A stretch of 64,000 nucleotides of DNA from Rugalucina vietnamica (lineage: Eukaryota > Mollusca > Bivalvia > Lucinida > Lucinidae). Positions within the stretch are counted from its first letter, which is position 1. Every line of letters begins with the position of its first letter. The notes beneath the pieces are model-generated. The model was not told where the DNA came from. It did no database searches and saw only the letters and a program-made list of their open reading frames with translations. The stretch is taken from positions 30,777,778 to 30,841,777 of the forward strand of contig OZ024876.1 of assembly GCA_964017185.1 (NCBI GenBank). Reading direction: 5' to 3'. The position numbers and the translations under genes were made by a program. Positions 5,862-58,940 of the stretch are shown piece by piece.

Positions 5862-5866
5862 ATGGA
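5862..5866. repeat. Target-site duplication ATGGA, left copy
   Basis: ATGGA precedes the CACAGTG end and recurs at 12734-12738 just after the other end. Confidence 0.65.
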
Positions 5867-5955
5867 CACAGTGTTTCAGGTCTGTCACAGTGTGCGTGAT
5901 TCTTTATGATACCAGCTACTGATTCTTGATGATATCAGGTAACGGATTCTTGACA
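5867..5955 (+). repeat. Left terminal inverted repeat
   Basis: Pairs with 12640-12733 at roughly 80% by eye. It includes two CACAGTG words, one at the tip and one about 19 bp inward. Confidence 0.65.
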
Positions 5956-6408
5956 AATGCTACGGATTCTTGACAAGGATTGATACTCCCAATTGCAAAC
6001 AGCAAAAAATGTTAATTTTAGATAGTTTTAGATCTAAATTTTGTCAGGAGACATTTTATAAGCATGGTTATAGATAATCTATGTATATATTCTACATGTT
6101 AGGTGTTCAAAATTAAACCAATTAGATAAATTGAGCAAATATGAAAAACATGGCAATTCTGTGTAATTATGTGAATTTCTAAAGCAAACATGTTTGGAAA
6201 CATTGAAACAGTTAATAAAAGTGATACTTGGGCCTTCAAATTCTACATTACCCTGCGTAATAACTCTTTTTCATTTTTTGGTATGCTACGGATTCTTGAT
6301 GATACGTTACAGATTCTGTATGATATTGATAACAAAATGTGGGTAACAGATTCTTTATGATACATGTTACTGATTCTTTATGATAAATGTTACAGATTCT
6401 TTATGATT
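5896..6408 (+). repeat. Subterminal array of GATTCTTTATGATA
   Basis: The motif GATTCTTTATGATA, or close variants with TTGATGATA, recurs about nine times (first near 5898, last near 6396), often preceded by TAC(A/T)(G/C)A. It recurs inverted at the other end of the element. Confidence 0.75.
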
Positions 6409-6667
6409 TAAAGCAAGTTTATGATGATCTACAACTTAAAAGGCAGATTTGGACCCATTGTTTACCAATGAACTGTGTTTCTATCAACTCTACACTGCAA
6501 GAAATATGATGTGCATTGTAAAATTCGATCAGATTTATCACAAACCAATTAATAATAATTGTGATTAATGTAGAACCTGTTGTTTATTTGTGTATATCAC
6601 AAAACCCTATTATTGATTTATTCATTTACTTAGTTTTTAACTTTTTGATAAAATAAATTCGATTTTT
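6409..6667. other. AT-rich interior sequence
   Basis: I see no gene or known repeat between the subterminal array and the next nested repeat. Confidence 0.5.
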
Positions 6668-7297
6668 AACTCACCTGAGCCAAAGGCTCACAAGATGAGC
6701 TTATAGAATGGCCATGCTCCAGCGTCCGTCCGTCCTCGTCGCCCGTCCCCAATTTCAAAGCTCTTCTCCTCTGACACCACTTGGCCAATCAAAGCAAAAT
6801 TTTATATAAGGCAAATAAGAAATCCAGGTCACATGACCAAGATGGCCACCATGCCCATATATGGTAAAAACTCTTCAAAAATCTTCTTCTTCAGAAACGG
6901 TGGCATGAAGCATTGATGGCTCAAGAACTACAATGTGTATATAAATCATGACACTGTGATGACCTTGACCTATTTTACGGCAAGGTCAACATAGGTCGCC
7001 ATTGCATTTGAATGGGGAAAATTTTTACAATGTCATTTTAGTGAAAGTCTTGCGGGAAATGGGCAGTAGGACTGGATATTAATGATTCTGAAAAAAAATG
7101 AACCCAAGGGGCTCATCTGCCCCCACCCCGGGCAGTATATATGTACATGTATATTACTATAATATTCAAACATCTCCTCCTCTGACACGGCTTGGCCAAT
7201 CAAAGCCATTTTTAGCTCGACTGCACGAAGTGCATAGAGCTATTGCTGTCACCCCGGTCGTCCACGTTCCCGTTCCCGTGTGCGTTCCCGTTCCCGT

Positions 7298-7990
7298 TCC
7301 CGTGCGCGTCACACTTGCGTTAAAGTTTTCTAGAATTCCATATCTTGACAACCACTCATCAGAAAGCATTCATACTTGGACCATAGATACCCTGTAGGGT
7401 TAGCTTTCATTCCATGGCATCGGGCCCCTGGGTCCAGGCCAGGGGGTGGGGCTGGAGTTAAAATCTAGAACACCTTCAAAAATGGCAATTCTTGTGTTAA
7501 AGTTTTCTAGAAGTCCATATCTTGACAACCACTCATCAGAAAGCATTGATACTTGAGCCATTGACACCCTGTAGGGTCGGCTTTCATTCCATGGCATCAG
7601 ATCCCTGGGTCCATGCCAGGGGGTGGGGCTAGAGGTTAAAATCTAGAACACCATCAATAATAATGGCTTTTCTGTGATATAGTATTCTAGAAGTCTATAT
7701 CTTGAAAACTTTTTATCAGAGGGCTTTCATACTCGGACCATAGGTACCCTGTAAGGTTTCATTTCATTTCATGGCATCGGATCTCTGGGTCCATGCCTGG
7801 GGGGTGGGGCTGGAGGTTAAAAACTAGAACACTGTAAAAATAGATGTACTGCTGTGCAACTTTTACAAGGAGTTCATATCTTGACAACAACTTATCATAA
7901 AGCATTCATACTTCATACACTTTAGGTTCCATGACATCGCACCTCTGGGTCGGAGGCAGGGGGGCGGGGCTAGAGGTCAAAATCTAGAAC
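7298..7990 (+). repeat. Tandem array, unit about 190 bp
   Basis: Repeats of TCTAGAAGTCCATATCTTGA, then CATCAGAAAGCATT, then GGTCCATGCCAGGGGGTGGG, about four units with growing divergence. Confidence 0.75.
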
Positions 7991-8079
7991 TCCCCGAATT
8001 TTTTTTTCTTTTTATTTCTTAATAGAAACAACTTAGGAAGTTGGTTGGTCATTCATCTTTTGACTTTGTGACACTGACT

Positions 8080-9270
8080 TGTGTGTCATGACGGTAAGGT
8101 TCGTTTGACCTACTTTCCATGGTTCAGTGATTTTGCCTTATATCTTGACACTCAATTAGTATATTTTCTTACTTCTTTCAGATTATGAGTGAGTACGACC
8201 AGGCCTTTGACCCCAATATACTTATAGGTCACTGTGACCTAATTTCACGGTTCAGTGATTTTGCCTTATATCTTGACACTCAATTAGTATATTTTCATAC
8301 TTTTTTCAGATTATGAGTGAGTATGACCAGACCTTTGACCCCAATATACTTATAGGTCACTGTGACCTAATTTCACGGTTCAGTGATTTTGCCTTATATC
8401 TCGGTACTCAAATGGTTTATGAACAAACTTCTTTCAAAGTATGTTTGCGTATGACAAGACCTTTGACCCTGAAGTAGTCCTAGGTCACTGTGACCTAATT
8501 TCACGGTTCAGTGATTTTGCCTTATATCTTGACACTCAGTTAGTATATTTTCATACTTTTTCAGATTATGAGTGAGTATGACCAGACCTTTGACCCCGAT
8601 ATACTTATAGGTCACTGTGACCTAATTTCACGGTTCAGTGACTTTGCCTTATACCTCAGCACTCAAGTGGTTTATGAACATACTTCTTTCATACTATGTT
8701 TGCGTATGACAAGACCTTTGACCCTAAAGTAGTCCTAGGTCACTGTGACCTAATTTCACAGTTCAGTGATTTTCCTTTATATCTCGGCACTCAATAGGTA
8801 TATGGACATACTTCTTGCACGATATGTATGAGTATGACAAGACCTTTGACCATAAAGTATTCCTGGATCACTGTGACCTAATTTCATGGTTCAGTGATTT
8901 TGCCTTATATCTCGACACTCAGTCGGTATTTTTCATACTTCTTTCTGATTATGAATGAGTATGACCAGACCTTTAACCCAAACATACTTATAGGTCACTA
9001 TGACCTAATTTCATGGTTCAGTGATTTTGCTTTATATCTCAACACTGAATGGGTATATGATCATATTTCTTTCACATTATGAGTAAGTATCACTAGACCT
9101 TATAGGTCAGTGTGACCTTATTTCACGGTTCAGTGATTTTGCCTTGTGTCTTGGCACTCAGTTGGTATATGAACACACTTCTTTCACAATTTGAGTGAGA
9201 CCTCTAAATCTTAGGTAGTTATAGTTAACTTTCATAGTTCAGTGATTTTGCCTTATTGCATCAAGGCAAA
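8080..9270 (+). repeat. Tandem array, unit about 125 bp
   Basis: About nine units of GTCACTGTGACCTAATTTCA, GGTTCAGTGATTTTGCC, TATGAGTGAGTATGACCAGA and CCTTTGACC. The palindromic GGTCACTGTGACC is conserved in most units. Confidence 0.85.
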
Positions 9271-9959
9271 AAGATGTATGAGCATAATGCTTTGGGTTAC
9301 TGGTCGGGTTTGACCTTATGTTTGACAAAGGTCAGAAGCAGTCGAGCACGCTGTCCTGCGACAGCTCTTATTATGTGAAGCATCTATAGAATAGGGGATC
9401 AATGTATATATAAATAATCAAGGTCACATGACCAAGATGGCCACCATGCCCTTATATGGTAAAAACCCTTCAAAATTCTCCTTCTCTGACACCAATAAAC
9501 TGATTTTAACGAAACTTGGCGTGAAGCATCATGGTTAAAGTACTCTAATGTATATATAAATCATGATCATGACCCTGTGATGACCTTGACCAAGTTTATG
9601 GCAAGGTCAACATGGGTTGCCTATGCATTTGAATGGGAAAAACTGTTAAAATGTCATTTGAAGGGAAAGGCCATGGGGAAATTTGCAAATGGACAGAATA
9701 TTGATTATTCTGAAAAAAGAAAATGGCCCAAGGGCTTCATCTGCCCTTGCACTGGGGTTAAATACCATAATATTTTCAAACATGTTTATTGGTATTTGCA
9801 GCAGATCTCAGGTGAGCGTTTACAGGACCATTGGTCCTCTTGTTTCAATCAGTGAGACCGACAATCTTAAAAGTAGTATTCATGTGTGTACAATTTTACT
9901 TTTTTTTCTGTTTTGGATCTCACAAGCATGGGCATTGTTCCCATTTCTAACCACCTTAC

Positions 9960-10190
9960 CGCTTCGCTATGTGACCTTATGTATGTTTTCATGTTTGGGT
10001 AACTGAGTGACCGCCTAGTGGGAAATAGCTGCTCACTCAGATTACAAAATGTTCCCTAAGTACAACAAGTACCTTATTGTCAATCTAGTTTTTTTCACAT
10101 TGGTTTTCGGAGTGGCAATTTCTGATTGCACTTTCCTCTTATCATATTCATTGCATACTTTTTCCTTTTTGGTGCCACTTAAGAGAGGGA
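9960..10190 (+). mobile_element. Old Penelope-like 3' fragment
   Basis: GTAACTGAGTGACCGCC, AAATAGCTGCTCA and a later GGTTTTCGGAGTGGCAAT follow the order of the complemented tail at 24384-24600, but with much divergence. Confidence 0.5.
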
Positions 10191-10317
10191 ACATTTACTG
10201 CCAGACTGGAATTCAGGAAATATAAATATTCAAGGCCACTAATGAATAATTTATTGATTATTTGAAACAGATCCAAATTCACGGCTTTTACAGGATATCA
10301 TTGCTATGGCAAGCCGT

Positions 10318-11410
10318 TTATTTATTTACCCAAGAAAGCAGATATCTGTTTTGCGATATTAGACATCTTGTTTAATAAATAAGATATTTACTTTAATTTA
10401 TTAGATATCTATTATTAAGAAGATATCTTATAAATCAAATACGATAACCATTTTATATTATTACTAGATGTACAAAATGTTAATGTTAGATATCTGCAAT
10501 GTTAATATTAGATATCTGCAATGTTAATTTAGATGTCTAACAAAGTATATTTAGATATTATTCTACTTAAAAAGATATCTTATTTGTTATAATAGATATC
10601 TAAATTGACAAATAAGATATCTTAAAAATATATTAGATATCTTATTTGTAAAAAGTATATAACATATCTTAATTAATAATTAGTTATATGGATATCTGAT
10701 ATAGCAATTATGATATCAGATATAAACAAATTTCTTAATAAGGCATCTAAATCAGCATTTGCGATATCTAAAATAGTTCAATAGAAATCTGTGCTAACAT
10801 ATAAGATATCATATTTGTCGAATAAGATATCTTCTTGAGTATATTAGATATCCTAATTACATTCACTTGTAAGATATCAGATATGCTTAAGAAGATATCA
10901 TTTTTGATGAATTTCATATCTTATTTACAAAAATAGATATCTTATATCCTATATAAGCTATCTTATTGAGCTAAACAAATAAGACACCTCTAGTATATAA
11001 GATATCTTATTTATTTAACCCAATCACAACCGATTTCTTTTACTTATATAATTTATCTACTATGTCAATACAGATATCTAATTTATAACTTTAATTAAGA
11101 CATCTTGTATTTATTCATATATCTGAATTATAAATTAAGAAAATGTTTTTCTTATTCAGATATCTAATTTACCGAAAGAGAACTTATTGACCACTGTGTA
11201 TAAGATATCTGTATTACCAATTTAGATATCTTATTTGCTTATTAAGAAATCTAGGTTAGTAATAAAGATTTCATATTAACATAAGAAGATATCTTGATTA
11301 ATCTTGTAAGGAAGATATCTTGATTAATTTTGTAAAGAAGATATCTTATTTAGGTATAGCAGATGTCTCATTTAGTATATAAGATATCTAACTTATATTC
11401 GTTTCATAAT
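10318..11410. repeat. GATATC-rich palindromic block
   Basis: About 1.1 kb dominated by AAGATATCTTATTT and variants, in both orientations, every 20-50 bp and without a fixed period. No coding sequence is visible. Confidence 0.85.
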
Positions 11411-11417
11411 CACTCAG

Positions 11418-11590
11418 TCATCTCAGCGCTGTGTTTGGTGTGGGTTCGAGTCCCGCACTGGCTAATTGTGAGGCAAGCCAAGTTCTGCTTGCGGGTATGA
11501 CAGGTGGTTTTTCTCGGGGTTATCCCGTTTTCGCCCATCTACTTATTGGCCCGTCTCATATGAGCTGAAATAATCCTGAAACATAACTAG
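11418..11590 (+). mobile_element. tRNA-derived SINE (same family as 1871-2061)
   Basis: GTGGGTTCGAGTCCCGCAC (B box) is followed by GCTTGCGGGTATGACAGGTG and TTTTTCTCGGGGTTATCC, parallel to the SINE at 1871-2061. The A-box half is degraded. Confidence 0.65.
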
Positions 11591-11612
11591 AAGTTTGACT
11601 TCATTTCAGAGC

Positions 11613-11826
11613 GCGCTGGGTGTCGTAGTGGTAGAGCGTCAGACTTCAAATTGAGAGGTCCTGGGGTTCGATCCCCACAGGTGTCACCGTGTTTTGTCCT
11701 TGAGCATGACACATTAACTCCCTACAGTACTGGTTAAACCCAGGAATAATTGGCTCTGTACCGACATGACTGAAAAAATGTTGACTGGGACGTTAAGCCT
11801 CATTACAAATTGACTTTATTTCATTT
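11613..11826 (+). mobile_element. tRNA-derived SINE with GGGACGTTAAGCC tail
   Basis: Head GTGTCGTAGTGGTAGAGCGT (A box) and GGGGTTCGATCCCCAC (B box) look like a tRNA. A body follows with CTTGAGCATGACACATTAAC and ends TGGGACGTTAAGCCTCA. A copy on minus lies at 12812-13012. Confidence 0.8.
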
Positions 11827-11831
11827 AAAAA

Positions 11832-12020
11832 AGGAAGTGAAGTGCCGTAGGGGTAGACTACAGGACATCGATGCGAGAGGCCCTGGGTTCTGTACATAAC
11901 TCTACCATGCAGGTTGTATTCATGAATCTGTAGTTTTGTTTAAAACACAAGAAGTGGTGGCTCTTTGTCCCAACATGACATAAAACTTGTTTACTGGGAC
12001 GTGTAGTCATAACTTAACCA
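11832..12020 (+). mobile_element. Degraded SINE of the same type
   Basis: GTGCCGTAGGGGTAGACTAC and GGCCCTGGGTTCTG are eroded A and B boxes, followed by TTGTTTACTGGGACGTGTAG as the tail. Confidence 0.6.
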
Positions 12021-12195
12021 AACCATACCATAAAATTTGAAAATAAATGCTCAAATCTCAGTCTGACTGATAAAATAATGACTTGTATACCGAACCATAG
12101 GTGTTTTCTTTGTTCAAACCTGCTTTGTACATCAGAGACATTAATAATTGGTAGTTTATCTCGATAAAAGAGTGGTTGGTTGTATAGGCTATGGT

Positions 12196-12702
12196 GCCAT
12201 AAAGAATCTGTAACATATCATAAAGAATCTGTAACCCATCATTTAGTATCATACGGAATCCGTGACAAAATTTTGTCACAGATTCTTTATGATACTTTTG
12301 ATGCTTGTTAAAACAAAAGTCTGCAAAACAATTTCTTTGAAGATTAACATGCATGGAAAAGTGTTAGTTCATAGATAATCAGTTAAATTTCTAAACTCTT
12401 GATAAAATGTTTTGGTGTGTTATATATTTTGATATTCGTTTTCGATTTTCCTTGCTTAATTAACCATTTTAAGGATTTAATCACCCATTAACTTTCAACC
12501 TGTATATCCCCATTGCTAAAATTGATCGAGAACACTTTCCAGCTCATATATATTATGTATGTGTGCTCCAAAAGATCATTTCTGGCATCAAAAACCTTAG
12601 AAACGCCGGTTTCTCATCGCCTACCAATAATTGAGCTAGGAGAATCATAAAGAATCTGTAACACTATCATAAAGAATCAGTAGCTGATATCATAAAGAAT
12701 CA
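12196..12702 (-). repeat. Right subterminal array of TATCATAAAGAATC
   Basis: The complement of the left array occurs in two clusters, 12196-12300 and 12645-12702. The first cluster includes a hairpin whose arms are GTATCATACGGAATCCGTGA and its near complement. Confidence 0.75.
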
Positions 12703-12733
12703 TCCCGCACTGTGACGGACCTAAACCCCTGTG
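12640..12733 (-). repeat. Right terminal inverted repeat
   Basis: Partner of 5867-5955. It ends CACTGTGACGGACC then CCCTGTG, followed by ATGGA at 12734-12738. Confidence 0.6.
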
Positions 12734-12811
12734 ATGGATATCTATGCAAGAATTTGTTTTCACGTTTCCCATAGAAATGATCTCAAAATGCAAGAGACAA
12801 AATATGTTTGT

Positions 12812-44468: not shown

Positions 44469-45377
44469 TCAGATCTTTTGTATCATCATCGTCGTCTCTT
44501 TAAGCGGTAGCTCGGAACTTAAAGGCATCCATGCGTTGATGCCTAAGTAAGGTCCGTTTAGATCCGAATAAAGGCAGTTATAAAACCACCATGCTCCCGT
44601 GTAACGTACGGCACAAGCAAGGTCAGTGTGGCCGTCGTTGTCACGGTCTAGAGTAGAGAACATCTGACCATTGTGTTGGCTCAGCGAGTCCCCTGCATCT
44701 CCATGGTAATCTCCTACAGTAAGGCGGTAACCGTCACTTTCGTCAGATATTTGGAAAGTATCGTAGATCGCGTACGCTGTTACATTGTCCGTGTTCTTGA
44801 GAACAACCTTTAACCTGTAGCTGGACCGTGATGTTAGTTGATGTATTGCATCGTTACCAAACCAATATTCACCAGATGCATCACCAAAACCTTCCTTGTA
44901 ATCAGTCCAACTGCGATAGAAGTCGACTGACCCGTCGAATCGGTTTTGTATGACTGTCCAAAGTCCATCACAAGTTGACACACAGTTGACAAGTGCAGTT
45001 TTGTTTTCCGAATTGTGTGGATAAATTGTGTGAATGGCGTTTTGTCCAACTGCAATATTGAAGCTAGAACAGTCTGTAGGATAGTCTGTGGTTATGTTGG
45101 ATAAGCTTGGCTGACACGGTGACGTATCAGCTATCGTTGTGTGTTCCGTTGATTGAACAATTGATGTATGAATTGGGGTCGAATCTGTGACGCCTGACGT
45201 CAACGGAGCCGACAATGTCGTCGGGATAGGCAATCTAGGCGTTGGTATTCCTGTGGTGACCGTTCCGTTAGCCCCATTTGGAAGACTCCCTGTGGTGACC
45301 GTTCCGTTAGCTCCATTTACAAGACTTTGACCACCAGCTCTTGGACCCTCTCCCGTCGGTTGATTTTGCTCCTGAAT
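44469..45377 (-). CDS. Fibrinogen-related (FReD) type II membrane protein, exon 2
   Basis: After TTATTTCAG this exon reads IQEQNQPTGEGPRAGG, two repeats of NGANGTVTTG, a Ser/Thr/Pro-rich stalk, and a fibrinogen C-terminal domain from about CSSFNIA. Marks of the domain: CDGLWTVIQNRFDGSVDFYR, GFGDASGEYWFGNDAIHQLT, the calcium-loop-like DRDNDGHTDLACA, WWFYNC and the ending ETTMMIQKI before TGA. Six domain cysteines are present. FReD proteins bind sugars or acetyl groups and serve as pattern-recognition or adhesion molecules; here it would face outward. Open throughout, so probably functional. Confidence 0.9.
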   Translation of the reverse strand: MQEQNQPTGEGPRAGGQSLVNGANGTVTTGSLPNGANGTVTTGIPTPRLPIPTTLSAPLTSGVTDSTPIHTSIVQSTEHTTIADTSPCQPSLSNITTDYPTDCSSFNIAVGQNAIHTIYPHNSENKTALVNCVSTCDGLWTVIQNRFDGSVDFYRSWTDYKEGFGDASGEYWFGNDAIHQLTSRSSYRLKVVLKNTDNVTAYAIYDTFQISDESDGYRLTVGDYHGDAGDSLSQHNGQMFSTLDRDNDGHTDLACAVRYTGAWWFYNCLYSDLNGPYLGINAWMPLSSELPLKETTMMIQKI

Positions 45378-45489
45378 CTGAAATAAAATTACTAAGTCTC
45401 TTGATGATTGTTTTTAATTTAAACCATTAACAGTACCATTCAGTCTTTTGAGTTTTTTTCTCTCCCTACATATTATATTTTATTAAGCC

Positions 45490-46922: not shown

Positions 46923-48493
46923 GTATCTCTATCTCTATATACTGCCATACGCCCTCTAGGTAGGGTTGCGCATTGTCTGTTAGTATCAGACAGTTTAAAA
47001 GGATGAAAGTTTAGACAAGAATGAAGTGTGATAGTGAAGAATAAAAACAGATGATAGGTTAAAATAGGTGAGAGTAGCTAAAATCAGGTTAAAAACAAGC
47101 TTATCAGGGGTTATGGTCGAGAGTGTTGCAGCTTACAGATAGCAGCCTTAAAGGCATCCAATCTCTGTAAGCAAACAATAGACTCAGGGAGGGCATTCCA
47201 CTGAATAATGGCAAGGGGATAGAATGAATACTTGTAGAAATCTGTTGATGTTGATACCTGCCTGAAGGTCATAGAATGGCAGTATCTAGAGATCCTGTTG
47301 TTATACTGCACATAATCTGGGAGAGGGACTGCAACCAACCCATATACAATCTTATAAAAAAGACAAAGGCGGGCATCTGCCCGTCTTTGTTCCAATGTTC
47401 TCCAGCCGAGTTTGTTTAACATCTCAGTTACAGATGCCCTGCGATCAAAGTTGCTAGTGGTCCAGCGAGCAGCCCTTCGCTGGACCATTTCAATTTTAGA
47501 AATATGGTCTTTGGTATGCGGGTCCCATACCGCAGACGCATACTCCAACTGGGGTCTGACTAGGGTGTTATAGGCTGATTCCCTGACTTCCTGGTTTTTA
47601 CTTTTATTGTTGCGACGGATGTAGCCAAGAGACCGGTTTGCATTACCTACAACTCGATCAATGTGGGAGGTCCATGAGATATTGCTTCTGATGTCAACTC
47701 CAAGGTATCTAGCACAAGTGACAGTTTCCAACACCTGACCGTGGAGAATGTATTCTGATTTAATGGGGCTTTTGGAACCTGTCACCTGTACCACCTGGCA
47801 TTTTGAGGGATTGAACTGCATATCCCACTTCTTCTCCCACACTGACAGTAAGTCGAGGTCCTTTTGAAGTGCTGAGCTGTCTTCCTCACCCTTGATTGTG
47901 AGATACAGAGCAGTGTCATCCGCAAAAAGGCGTACTTGGGAAGAGATTTCATCGGGCAAGTCATTTATATATGCGAGGAAAAGAATCGGCCCCAATACAG
48001 ATCCCTGGGGGACACCTGAATTTACTGGTATTGAGTCCGACTCCTCCGCATCAATGACCACCCGCTGGGATCTGTTCCCAAGGAAAGCTTGAATCCAGCT
48101 TAGCACTTTACCTCTTATTCCATAATTGTGCAGTTTCCAGAGGAGCTTGCTGTGGTTGACTTTGTCAAAAGCCTTCGAAAAATCTAGTAATATCCTCCCA
48201 TTTGCATTCCTTGCAAGGTCCTCAATCATCATGACCAGTTGCGTTTCACAGGATCTTTTCTCCCTGAAACCATGTTGCAGGTCATACATGATTCCTTGTG
48301 CATCTAGATGTTTAACAATGTTTGATGCTAGGATGTGCTCTAGCACCTTGCAGAGAATGCAAGTGAGGGAAATGGGTCTATAATTAGCCGCAGAGGATTT
48401 GTCTCCTTTTTTGAAGACTGGCATTACATTAGCTGTAACCCAGTCAGAAGGTAGCTTTCCTGTTTGGAGAGATTTTTCAAAAATGATTTTTAT
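46923..48493 (-). mobile_element. LINE (non-LTR retrotransposon), 5'-truncated
   Basis: Minus-oriented, with a 3' tail of short AGAGATA-like repeats (46923-46945) and a 5' break inside the RT region. It is inserted in a MITE. Target duplication at most 2-3 bp (AT/GAT). Confidence 0.85.
47111..48489 (-). CDS. LINE reverse transcriptase (N-terminally truncated)
   Basis: About 460 open residues. RT landmarks in order: LPSDWVTANVMPVFKKGDKS, NYRPISLTCILCKVLEHI, GRILLDFSKAFDKVNHSKLL (first catalytic Asp), NSGVPQGSVLGPILFLAYIN, VRLFADDTALY (FADD box), then KCQVVQVTGSKSP and the post-RT ASAVWDPHTKDHISKIEMVQ. No internal stop, so it is young, but the endonuclease and ORF1 are missing. The upstream extension of the open frame (to 48649) is MITE sequence read by chance. 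Belongs to the Jockey/CR1 side of LINEs; exact clade unsure. Confidence 0.85.
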
Positions 48494-48549
48494 ATCTGCG
48501 CCTTTGTTTTCGCCTATGCAGATTGTTGGTTTTCCCATAGGGCGGCTCA

Positions 48550-49079
48550 TTTGATGATTGGAAACGAAACATTGATATAAACATGCATGAACTTTATTTT
48601 TTAATCTTTTGGTGATAAAACTTTTCTTAAATTTAAAACTGAGCGTCAAATTTTATTGACATATTTCTTACGTATATAATTAAACAGGGACAGTAGATTG
48701 TATTATAGATCACTGAATTAAATAATGATTTGATGCCTCACCTCGATAGTGCACATACTCTGACCGTGCCGCTTGACCTCTGACATAGATATTCATTTGT
48801 TGATCAGACTGCTTAAATAAATACATGCTATATGTTTTAAATCGTGCGACTAATGGTAATCAATGTATGACCATGTGTTTCACTTGGCACTGGGAAAATG
48901 TGTAAAACAAATTAAATTTTAAAACCAAACCTGAAGTCCCTAAAATTAAAGTAGACTCACCCGAATGATTACGGTGGAAGAATCCATTCGTCATTAATGG
49001 GTTAAGGTCGACCTTCACTTGACATTTTCCTTAACGTGATGGGATTTAAATGCTAACGGTTATTCGAAACAAATTCTAA
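48550..49079. other. USP intron 2, nothing recognised
   Basis: AT-rich intron sequence without visible elements. Confidence 0.5.
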
Positions 49080-56260: not shown

Positions 56261-58940
56261 TGGTTTAAACAATATTTATTTTTTCCATTAATACATATAT
56301 ATGTTACAAGCATATTATATTGAGCATTTGGATTGGAAAGCAAGCTGTAATAGCTTATATATATCCTCTCCAAGAGATGTATAGTTACGTTTAAATGAAA
56401 ACGCATGTCGTGGATATCACTTGACAATAAAACGGTTTTGGATAAAATGCACCAATGATCAAACGAAAAGAAAAAAAAAAGGTGTGTATGTTGCTCATCG
56501 AGGCCGCGCCCAGATGACCCCCAACAATCCCGCACCGCACCCACGTGATAGGCAAGGTTACAGTAAAGATCATGTTTAGGAAAAGCGCTTTGTTCGTTCA
56601 ATGAATGTTTGAACTGCTTTGAAAATATTTTGGTTTGCTTCGTCGTTTAAAAGTGGATCTCCGCTCAATAATGTTTTAATTGGCGTGTTTAAATAGTTGC
56701 TAAGCACTTGATTTCGAACTGCAGTGTAATTAGGACAGATTAAAAGGTAATGTTTTGTGGTTTCTATTGCCCCACAAGAACAAATTGCTGAGTCAACTAT
56801 ATTTTTCTTAGAAAGATGGTAATTTAATGAACTACATTCTAGTCTTAATCTTGTTTGAAGAACTTGCAATGTTCTGGGGCCGTAATTAAAGTATGAAGGT
56901 GGCCTACGTCTGTTGGCGTACAATTTAGACTTAAAGATTGGGAACGTTTGTGAATTTCTTATTTCTTCTGATAAATTATTCCATTCTCGTATTGTTGTTG
57001 GTAGGAACGAATCATAATGTAAATTTGTGTAAGACCTTAGGGTAGATATATTTCTTGCATTCCTTAAAGAGTATTGTGAAACTTCCTGGACTAGTGGAGG
57101 TACCAAGTTGTTCAGGTAATTAGGAGTTAGACCGTGCACCATTTTATAGAATATTAAAAGTTTTTGCTTAGTTCGTCTTGTCTGTAATAATTCCCATCCC
57201 GTATCATCATAGAGTTTAGCTATACTGCACAACTTTGTTGCCCCTGTTACAATTCTCATAGCTTCAATTTGGATGGCTTCAATGCGAGTTTTATCATCTT
57301 TTATACAATTGTCCCATACTGTTCCACCATATTCAAGAACGGGTCGTATAAAAGAAAAATACATACGTTCTAAGGAATTTCTATCCAATTTATATTTAAA
57401 AGCCCTTAATATGTTTATCCTTTGCCATGCCTTTTTCGTAATTTCATCAATATGTATATGCCAGAAACAGTCATTGGAGAAAATTAAGCCTAAATGTTTA
57501 TGTGAATTCACTGTATTTAGCACTGTGTTGTTCATCAGGAGATGAGGGTGAATAGGTTTAATTGATTTGCGAGATAAAAGCATCGTTTCAGTTTTAGTTT
57601 CATTAAAGTCTACTAGCCAGTCACCAGCCCATGAATATATGCGGTTAAGATTATAGTTCAAGACGTTAGCAGCGGTTGCAGGGTCTTCTACAATGATAAA
57701 CAAACTCGTGTCATCAGCAAATAGTCGAACATTACAATTAAGTTCACGAACTATATCATTAATGTATATTAAAAAACAATAAGGGGCCTAATATAGAGCC
57801 TTGAGGAACACCTGATTCTACTAACTTGAATTCTGAAGTACTACCATTGATGACAACACGTTGTTTTCTATCCGCCAGATAATTTCGAAACCATTCTAAT
57901 AACCTTCCTGAAATTCCTATGCTTTCGAGTTTATGTAGGAGGCCTGCATGCCAAACTCTATCGAAAGCTTTGCTGATATCGCAAAATACTACGCGAACCT
58001 CTTTTCCAGAGTCGACAGCCTCACAAAACGAATTATAAATGTCTGTCAGCTGATATGTGGTAGAATCGCCACGAACGAACCCTGACTGGAGCGGTGTAAT
58101 AATATTATTTGAAATGCAATAGTTATAAACATGTTTATGAGTACAGCGTTCCATAGTTTTATGCCTACATTGCTTAATAGAGATATGGGTCGGAAGTTTG
58201 ACGGCAAAGACCGGTCACCCTTTTTATATATCGGTATTACGTTTGATTCCTTATAAACTATGGGGAATTTCCCCTCCCGAATCAGGCGATTAAAGAATAT
58301 ACTGAATGGCCCACATAACACTGATGATCCTTCTTTTAATAAACGCGGGCTAATTTGGTCTGGACCAGTTGCTTTCGTCACATTAAGATTTCGTAAGACA
58401 TCATTGACTTCCTGTTCACTTATATTGATTATTTCCAGAGTACGATAAGGAGGCGGTATAGATCTCGGAAGAACCGGTACATTATCCCGTAGTTTCGACT
58501 GACTAATAAAATAAGAGTTTAATGCATCTGCCTTGTCATTATTTGTTTCATACGTATTCCCATTATATTCAATACAAGGTATAGTATCACCTTTATTATC
58601 AATATTCAGAATTTGTTTTGATAATTTCCACCAAGTTTTAACATTTGTATTACTATTTTTGAGCCGCGAAGCTGTATTTGTTTCATATACTATTTTTGCT
58701 GTTCTGACTTTTTGTATAACTTTATTTCTTAGTCTTCTATATTTGGCCCATTTATGATCGTTATTAGTTCTTTTTGCTTGTTTATGTACCCGTTTTCTTT
58801 GTCTAATTAATTTCCGTATTTCGTTATGCATCCAGGGGGAGTCTGTCGGTCGAATTGTTACTATCTTATTAGGAATCGATTGTTCCGCAGCATTTAATAT
58901 AGAAGTATTTAATATAGAAGTATTTAGTATGCATAGACTT
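56261..58940 (-). mobile_element. LINE, 5'-truncated, 2.7 kb
   Basis: Minus-oriented. The 3' end at 56261 begins (on +) TGGTTTAAACAATATTTATT, identical to the 3' end of the LINE at 61525. The 5' break near 58940 falls at the end of the endonuclease region (LNAAEQSIPNKIVTIRPTDS, PWMHNEIRKLIRQRKRVHK). Confidence 0.9.
56576..58830 (-). pseudogene. LINE reverse transcriptase, two frameshifts
   Basis: In order on minus: MHNEIRKLIRQRKRVHKQAK, NVTKATGPDQISPRLLKEGS, KKGDRSLPSNFRPISLLSNV; a frame change near 58150; LQSGFVRGDSTTYQLTDIYN, VRVVFCDISKAFDRVWHAGL (catalytic Asp), ESGVPQGSILGPLLF; a second change in a T-run near 57775 (one extra base); then VRLFADDTSLFIIVEDPA (FADD box), HKHLGLIFSNDCFWHIHIDE, the post-RT domain and CSCGAIETTKHYLLICPNY, a C/H knuckle-like ending. 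Only two small breaks, so it is a recent but dead insertion. Jockey/CR1-side LINE. Confidence 0.9.

Follow-up and report, generated by a model that had tools for sequence, protein, structure and literature searches.

Which transposase moves an element whose tips resemble the heptamer of the recombination signal sequence (RSS) and whose insertion duplicated five bases? The question is raised by a locus of the bivalve Rugalucina vietnamica, at positions 5867–12733 of a stretch of 64,000 nucleotides (hereafter the window; contig OZ024876.1, here C8, C8:30777778–30841777), for which the original prediction was a large, possibly Transib/RAG-like non-autonomous transposon with CACAGTG tips. Searches of the source genome (1.09 Gb, 47 contigs) indicate that this element very probably belongs to a family of DNA transposons that move by cut and paste and are non-autonomous: the ends of the copies are fixed and form a terminal inverted repeat, subterminal arrays lie at both ends, the duplications are mostly of 5 bp and sometimes of 6 bp, the targets are of the ATNAT type, the copies are numerous with little divergence between their ends, and those read do not carry any transposase-sized frame.

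Boundaries and structure of the element

The inverted ends and their ATGGA flanks are real features of the locus: the terminal inverted repeats align over 85 bases with 82.6% identity (E 6.7e-17, window 5867–12733), and ATGGA is found at both 5862–5866 and 12734–12738. The left tip, CACAGTGTTTCAGG, begins at 5867 and the right tip, CACAGGGGTTTAGG on the reverse strand, begins at 12733. The parts of the element and the basis of each are as follows.

5862–5866, no strand: left target site duplication ATGGA (sequence read)
5867–5951, plus strand: left terminal inverted repeat of 85 bp, beginning with the tip CACAGTGTTTCAGGTC (identical boundary in other copies)
5886–5892, plus strand: inner CACAGTG, 12 bp behind the left tip heptamer (one is present in 38 of the 38 ends read)
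5898–6408, plus strand: left subterminal array of seven GATTCTTTATGATA motifs with at most 1 mismatch (motif scan)
6668–9839, no strand: nested insert, tandem arrays with units of 177 bp and 128 bp (copy comparison)
10333–11396, no strand: AT-rich region with AGATATCTTATTT-like repeats of about 21 bp and without a long frame (copy comparison)
12216–12701, no strand: right subterminal array of the GATTCTTTATGATA motif with at most 1 mismatch, four inverted and one direct (motif scan)
12650–12733, minus strand: right terminal inverted repeat, tip CACAGGGGTTTAGGTC (sequence read and alignment)
12708–12714, minus strand: inner CACAGTG of the right end (ends read)
12734–12738, no strand: right target site duplication ATGGA (sequence read)

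With at most 1 mismatch, 12 GATTCTTTATGATA motifs were found in the window, every one of them inside the element and no more than about 545 bp from one of its ends. When 2 mismatches are allowed, 15 of the 16 motifs of the window are inside the element, one of these being in the nested insert.

A family of repeated copies with conserved ends

The genome-wide search for inverted pairs of ends, proposed as a check of the locus, revealed a family of repeated copies. A degenerate end pattern of 28 bases, CACANNGNTTNAGGTCNGTCACAGTGNG, matches exactly at 479 places of the genome (243 + 236) and its reversed control at none; the inverted ends are therefore not due to chance. DNA searches with the left and the right end each retrieved at least 40 close copies (the best 40 candidates being scored). 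The possibility that inverted repeats and matching flanks merely coincide at this locus is refuted by these counts together with the duplications found in 22 of 26 paired copies (see the next section); the only point in its favour is the four pairs devoid of duplication, and its probability is practically negligible. A pattern designed to detect ends that differ in their subterminal part gave one match, in a copy already among the listed matches of the 479-place pattern, and two in its control, and the end pattern was not found in the viral contigs scanned.

The tips vary among copies. According to a hand count of the first 100 of the 479 ends (both sides), the opening heptamer is CACAGGG in 46, CACACTG in 40, CACAGTG in 11, CACAATG in 2 and CACAGAG in 1, and over the whole set CACAGTG opens 48 of the 479 ends. 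Exact right tips occur genome-wide as 17 of the CGGGATG type and 99 of the CGAGATG type. The 38 ends that were read came from DNA searches with 124 or 130 bases and are the best matches to the window copy, hence they represent its own subtype; all 38 begin with CAC, the tip being CACAGGG in 29 of the 30 right ends and CACAGTG in the 8 left ends. CACAGGG, which had been taken for a deviating heptamer in the window copy, is thus the common right tip. In every one of these 38 ends, the tip heptamer is followed at a distance of exactly 12 bp by a CACAGTG, so that it is this inner heptamer which is conserved. The tips described initially as CACAGTG do exist in this exact form in the 48 ends mentioned above, but the conserved CACAGTG sits 12 bp inward.

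Right ends of 580 bp from 32 copies (496 pairs) diverge by a median of 3.4%, a mean of 7.2% and a minimum of 0.7%, in a sample that favours similar copies, 29 of the 32 being best matches to the right end of the window copy. The latter diverges from the other right ends by a median of 6.6%, which suggests that the window copy either belongs to a different subfamily or is older.

A low-copy subfamily has tips CACAGTGATTAAGG (e.g. C6:46879930 and C8:48464832); two of its copies, X and Y, were read. Furthermore, three sites carry ends of two different members about 21–38 bp apart (C2:2701406–2701499, C4:38090840–38090945 and C10:9259270–9259370), whereas about 0.008 pairs of ends within 40 bp would be expected for 240 random insertions. 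Family members may insert near resident ends.

Target site duplications and target preference

Flanking duplications were tabulated over 26 paired copies (one additional row that reuses a right end is not counted), as had been advised for this locus. Duplications flank 22 of the 26 pairs, mostly of 5 bp as anticipated (19 of 22), the other three being of 6 bp (AGTAAT, GGTTAA and AATATA). The chance of a 5-bp match between flanks is about 0.0013 per pair.

The target sites share a composition. A set of 46 sites was assembled from the 19 paired 5-bp duplications and from the flanks of 27 ends that were read without their partner, for which a length of 5 bp was assumed. Their GC content is 26% (60/230) versus 37.5% in the window, whose composition stands in for that of the genome (p 1.7e-4). 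A at position 1 or T at position 5 is found in 49 of 92 cases (p 1e-5), and T at position 2 or A at position 4 in 45 of 92 (p 3e-4). At least three of the four letters of ATNAT are matched by 17 of the 46 sites, and those of CGNCG by none of the 46. The target preference of the family is palindromic and AT-rich, ATNAT.

Copy anatomy and coding content

The shortest copy with a full core that was read, copy a, is only 3665 bp long. Both copy a and the 20-kb copy I align to the window element without 6668–9839, i.e. without the nested insert. This insert is also present, at the site where the window copy has it, in copies N (22 kb) and D (9.3 kb), so that it was inherited within this subfamily. 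The initial description as a large element holds for the window copy, which does span 5867–12733, but not for the element by nature, since copy a is 3665 bp long and the window copy is enlarged by its nested insert. The AT-rich middle with its repeats of about 21 bp is common to the window copy and to copies I, a, N and D. Copy b (3429 bp) does not represent a clean core, as it lacks this middle and harbours about 1 kb of insert-type repeat at another place.

Most of the length of copies I and N comes from stretches outside the shared core, and two of the extra stretches of copy I are bordered by short duplication-like repeats. Copy I (C1) also harbours a nested piece of 2 kb (L060:7791–9812) whose inverted ends include CACTGGTAAACGTAAACGCA and which is bordered on each side by GTGTTA; this piece is perhaps another CAC-type element of the same genome.

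No copy that was read encodes a RAG1/Transib-like protein, as was already noticed for the window copy. The longest open frame has 118 codons in the window copy; in copies a, b, I, N and D it has 139, 79, 169, 156 and 198 codons, respectively. No transposase-sized frame was found in any copy read, including copy N, both ends of which have CACAGTG, copy D and the two CACAGTGATTAAGG copies. Ten frames, seven of copy I and three of the window element, were compared with Pfam; the three matches obtained are all under the family cut-offs.

Taken together, these features suggest that the transposition of the family could proceed as follows. A transposase supplied in trans would bind both the end repeat and the motifs of the subterminal arrays, and would cut at the CAC tips. 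The cut ends would then be joined to the target DNA with a 5-bp stagger, whose repair would give rise to the duplication.

Several observations weigh against a non-autonomous cut-and-paste family. Four of the 26 pairs lack a duplication: copy B (C8:45176422), copy D (C5:27477485), a 252-bp miniature inverted-repeat transposable element (C2:64518348) and the copy at C1:30751229. Copies X and Y of the CACAGTGATTAAGG subfamily have one common set of flanks and no duplication; as their flanks are shared, this insertion was apparently copied along with a larger surrounding repeat. The frame-length test could miss a transposase gene split by introns. Finally, no autonomous partner was found by the searches for RAG1-like, hAT and Transposase_21 proteins or in the long copies read, so that the enzyme is inferred.

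Does a Transib or RAG1-like transposase cut the ends?

Like Transib elements, the family has 5-bp duplications and CAC tips, some of which are exact CACAGTG, and protostome RAG-like (RAGL) elements likewise share CAC tips and 5-bp duplications; non-autonomous protostome RAGL copies are reported from an oyster in excerpts of PMC7204232. What was proposed for the window element thus holds as far as a non-autonomous transposon with terminal inverted repeats, CAC tips and a duplication mostly of 5 bp is concerned. Its membership of the Transib/RAG group does not follow, and cleavage by a Transib or RAG1-like transposase is improbable. First, a GC bias is reported for the duplications made by ProtoRAG, Transib and RAG (excerpts of PMC8289069), whereas the targets of the family are AT-rich; its subterminal motif arrays are a further difference from Transib. 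Secondly, the tips misfit the protostome RAG-like consensus, CACTWMCAAACKTYKBB in the part of PMC7204232 that describes it: upon inspection, tips such as CACACTGTTTTAGG, CACAGGGGTTTAGG and CACAGTGTTTCAGG have A instead of T at position 4 and no AAA at positions 8–10. Thirdly, the two ends of the window copy do not carry any nonamer (1–2 of 9 letters match at both 12- and 23-bp spacings), as the first inspection had indicated. Finally, the consulted part of a survey of mollusc genomes lists one Transib element (PMC10294476).

The genome itself does contain RAG1-like loci. A RAG1 family search found one locus on C9, with 782 open codons, and one split locus on C11. The C9 frame (C9:34097107–34099008, minus strand; L062:1432–3780) has a RING domain ahead of the RAG1 core. 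Among solved structures, the best relative of its product is chain RAG1L of 6b40 (652 bits). A 305-residue C-terminal part of this product reached HzTransib (6pqn) in the PDB set with an E-value of 5.5e-4, so that such a query may or may not have revealed a Transib. Used as a query with E up to 10, the C9 protein retrieved both loci and two apparent chance matches, which were rejected by eye as a reverse-transcriptase-like and a zinc-finger-like frame. A further RAG1-like protein search retrieved only the C9 locus, under the cut-off. No Transib gene was found by the RAG1-family and RAG1-like protein searches, the queries of which did not include a Transib profile.

The suggested search for a full-length relative carrying a Transib or RAG1-like transposase thus led to two RAG1-like loci, but no family tips lie near them. 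In the flanks read (8.1 and 7.5 kb for C9, 6.8 and 4.2 kb for C11), neither the right tip nor a longer end motif was found when up to four substitutions were allowed. For the left tip, similar 16-mers that differ by at most four substitutions number 7 at each locus versus 3.0 and 4.2 in shuffled sequence, an excess that looks mild and is not taken to represent ends. None of 164 oriented family tips lies within 30 kb of the RAG1-like loci, and neither of the two loci is inside an element marked by these tips. As the 164 oriented ends used to mark elements are only part of the family, this result and the placement results given below are partial negatives. The lack of such ends near the genome's RAG1-like loci is a further difference between the family and protostome RAGL elements. 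On the other hand, a Transib driver could be too divergent for the searches used, and autonomous Transibs are said to occur in one or few copies (excerpts of PMC4411706), so that not finding one among the copies read counts for little.

A separate CAC-tipped lineage, perhaps a relative of Transib/RAG, can also be envisaged, in which AT-preferring targets would be combined with a pair of heptamers (the one at the tip, followed after 12 bp by CACAGTG) that replaces heptamer and nonamer, in a genome that also has a long RAG1-like frame; this is less probable still. Overall, kinship with RAG is disfavoured by the AT-rich targets and by the absence of an enzyme gene that would match. RSS-like tips and a 5-bp duplication are thus insufficient to call an element RAG-like, as the target composition over many copies points elsewhere.

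CACTA/EnSpm-type and other transposases

Arrays of subterminal motifs are frequent among hAT elements and are also typical of CACTA elements. Besides these arrays, the family shares with EnSpm/CACTA the CAC..GTG termini described as typical in excerpts of PMC12730594. The genome also holds a candidate enzyme, as Transposase_21 is matched at 15 places, six of which have a 901-codon frame. It nevertheless seems rather unlikely that the family is moved by a CACTA/EnSpm/Chapaev-type or still unnamed transposase, which would have to make an unusual 5-bp stagger: the duplications of EnSpm/CACTA elements are of 2–3 bp (same excerpts of PMC12730594), whereas those of the family are of 5–6 bp in 22 of 22 cases. 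In addition, none of the 15 Transposase_21 places is inside the elements marked by the 164 oriented ends, and two copies with the 901-codon frame (C5:35584318 and C16:9752529) have neither a family end nor a subterminal motif in the 9.9 kb read for each, their own ends being beyond this stretch.

These two Transposase_21 copies are about 98% identical over 9.9 kb. Since they stay alike across the whole stretch read, the element that carries them must be longer than 9.9 kb, and it has perhaps been active recently. It has one piece of 160–190 bp in common with the core of the family (68–71% identity), which is also present elsewhere in the window and looks like a dispersed repeat.

Four other groups were put aside on account of their termini or duplications. 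Ginger was discarded because of its TGT ends. According to excerpts of PMC10045372 complemented by general background, IS3EU has 6-bp duplications and TA ends, IS481EU has TGT ends and duplications of 4 or about 15 bp, and Polintons make 6-bp duplications.

A possible hAT5-type transposase acting in trans

The hAT5 and hAT6 groups, which belong to a lineage with Blackjack, are defined by duplications of 5 and 6 bp in excerpts of PMC12730594, and the 19 five-base and 3 six-base duplications of the family agree with this definition. In the consulted part of the mollusc survey, hAT is second to Tc1/mariner in element number (PMC10294476). The genome studied here contains at least 116 places with a hAT dimerisation domain (116 among the 150 scored of 199 candidates). 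The targets of the Ac group of hAT elements have the form nTn..nAn, with which the enrichment of T2/A4 in the AT-leaning targets of the family agrees, and its subterminal arrays are likewise of a kind common in hAT. These data make it plausible, if somewhat short of an even chance, that a hAT transposase from the group with 5-bp (hAT5) or 6-bp (hAT6) duplications moves the family in trans.

Two observations run counter to this lean towards hAT, besides the lack of any transposase seen in the family. The usual hAT tip is CAG, unlike the CACA tip of the family. Moreover, none of the 116 hAT places is inside the elements marked by the 164 oriented ends: the only one within 30 kb inward of a right tip is located 12 kb from the right tip C7:22071456, yet beyond its apparent partner, the left tip C7:22066217. 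In the 20 hAT 3' flanks read (1.3 kb each, for 20 of the 116 places), no family tip was found. Among the groups that make 5-bp duplications, a hAT5-type enzyme is nonetheless somewhat, albeit weakly, favoured over Transib/RAG, as it fits better the AT-rich target and the hAT-rich setting of molluscs; part of the probability falls on none of the three types considered. Whichever enzyme is involved, the family provides a clean probe for a transposase making 5-bp duplications at ATNAT sites in this genome.

Other features of the window

Three other open frames, all on the minus strand, were observed in the window. The frame at 44469–45413 has a fibrinogen C-terminal domain (E 2.9e-53). The one at 47111–48652 is a reverse-transcriptase frame (RVT_1, E 2.3e-37), and that at 56576–57787 is also a reverse-transcriptase frame, with a partial match under the cut-off.

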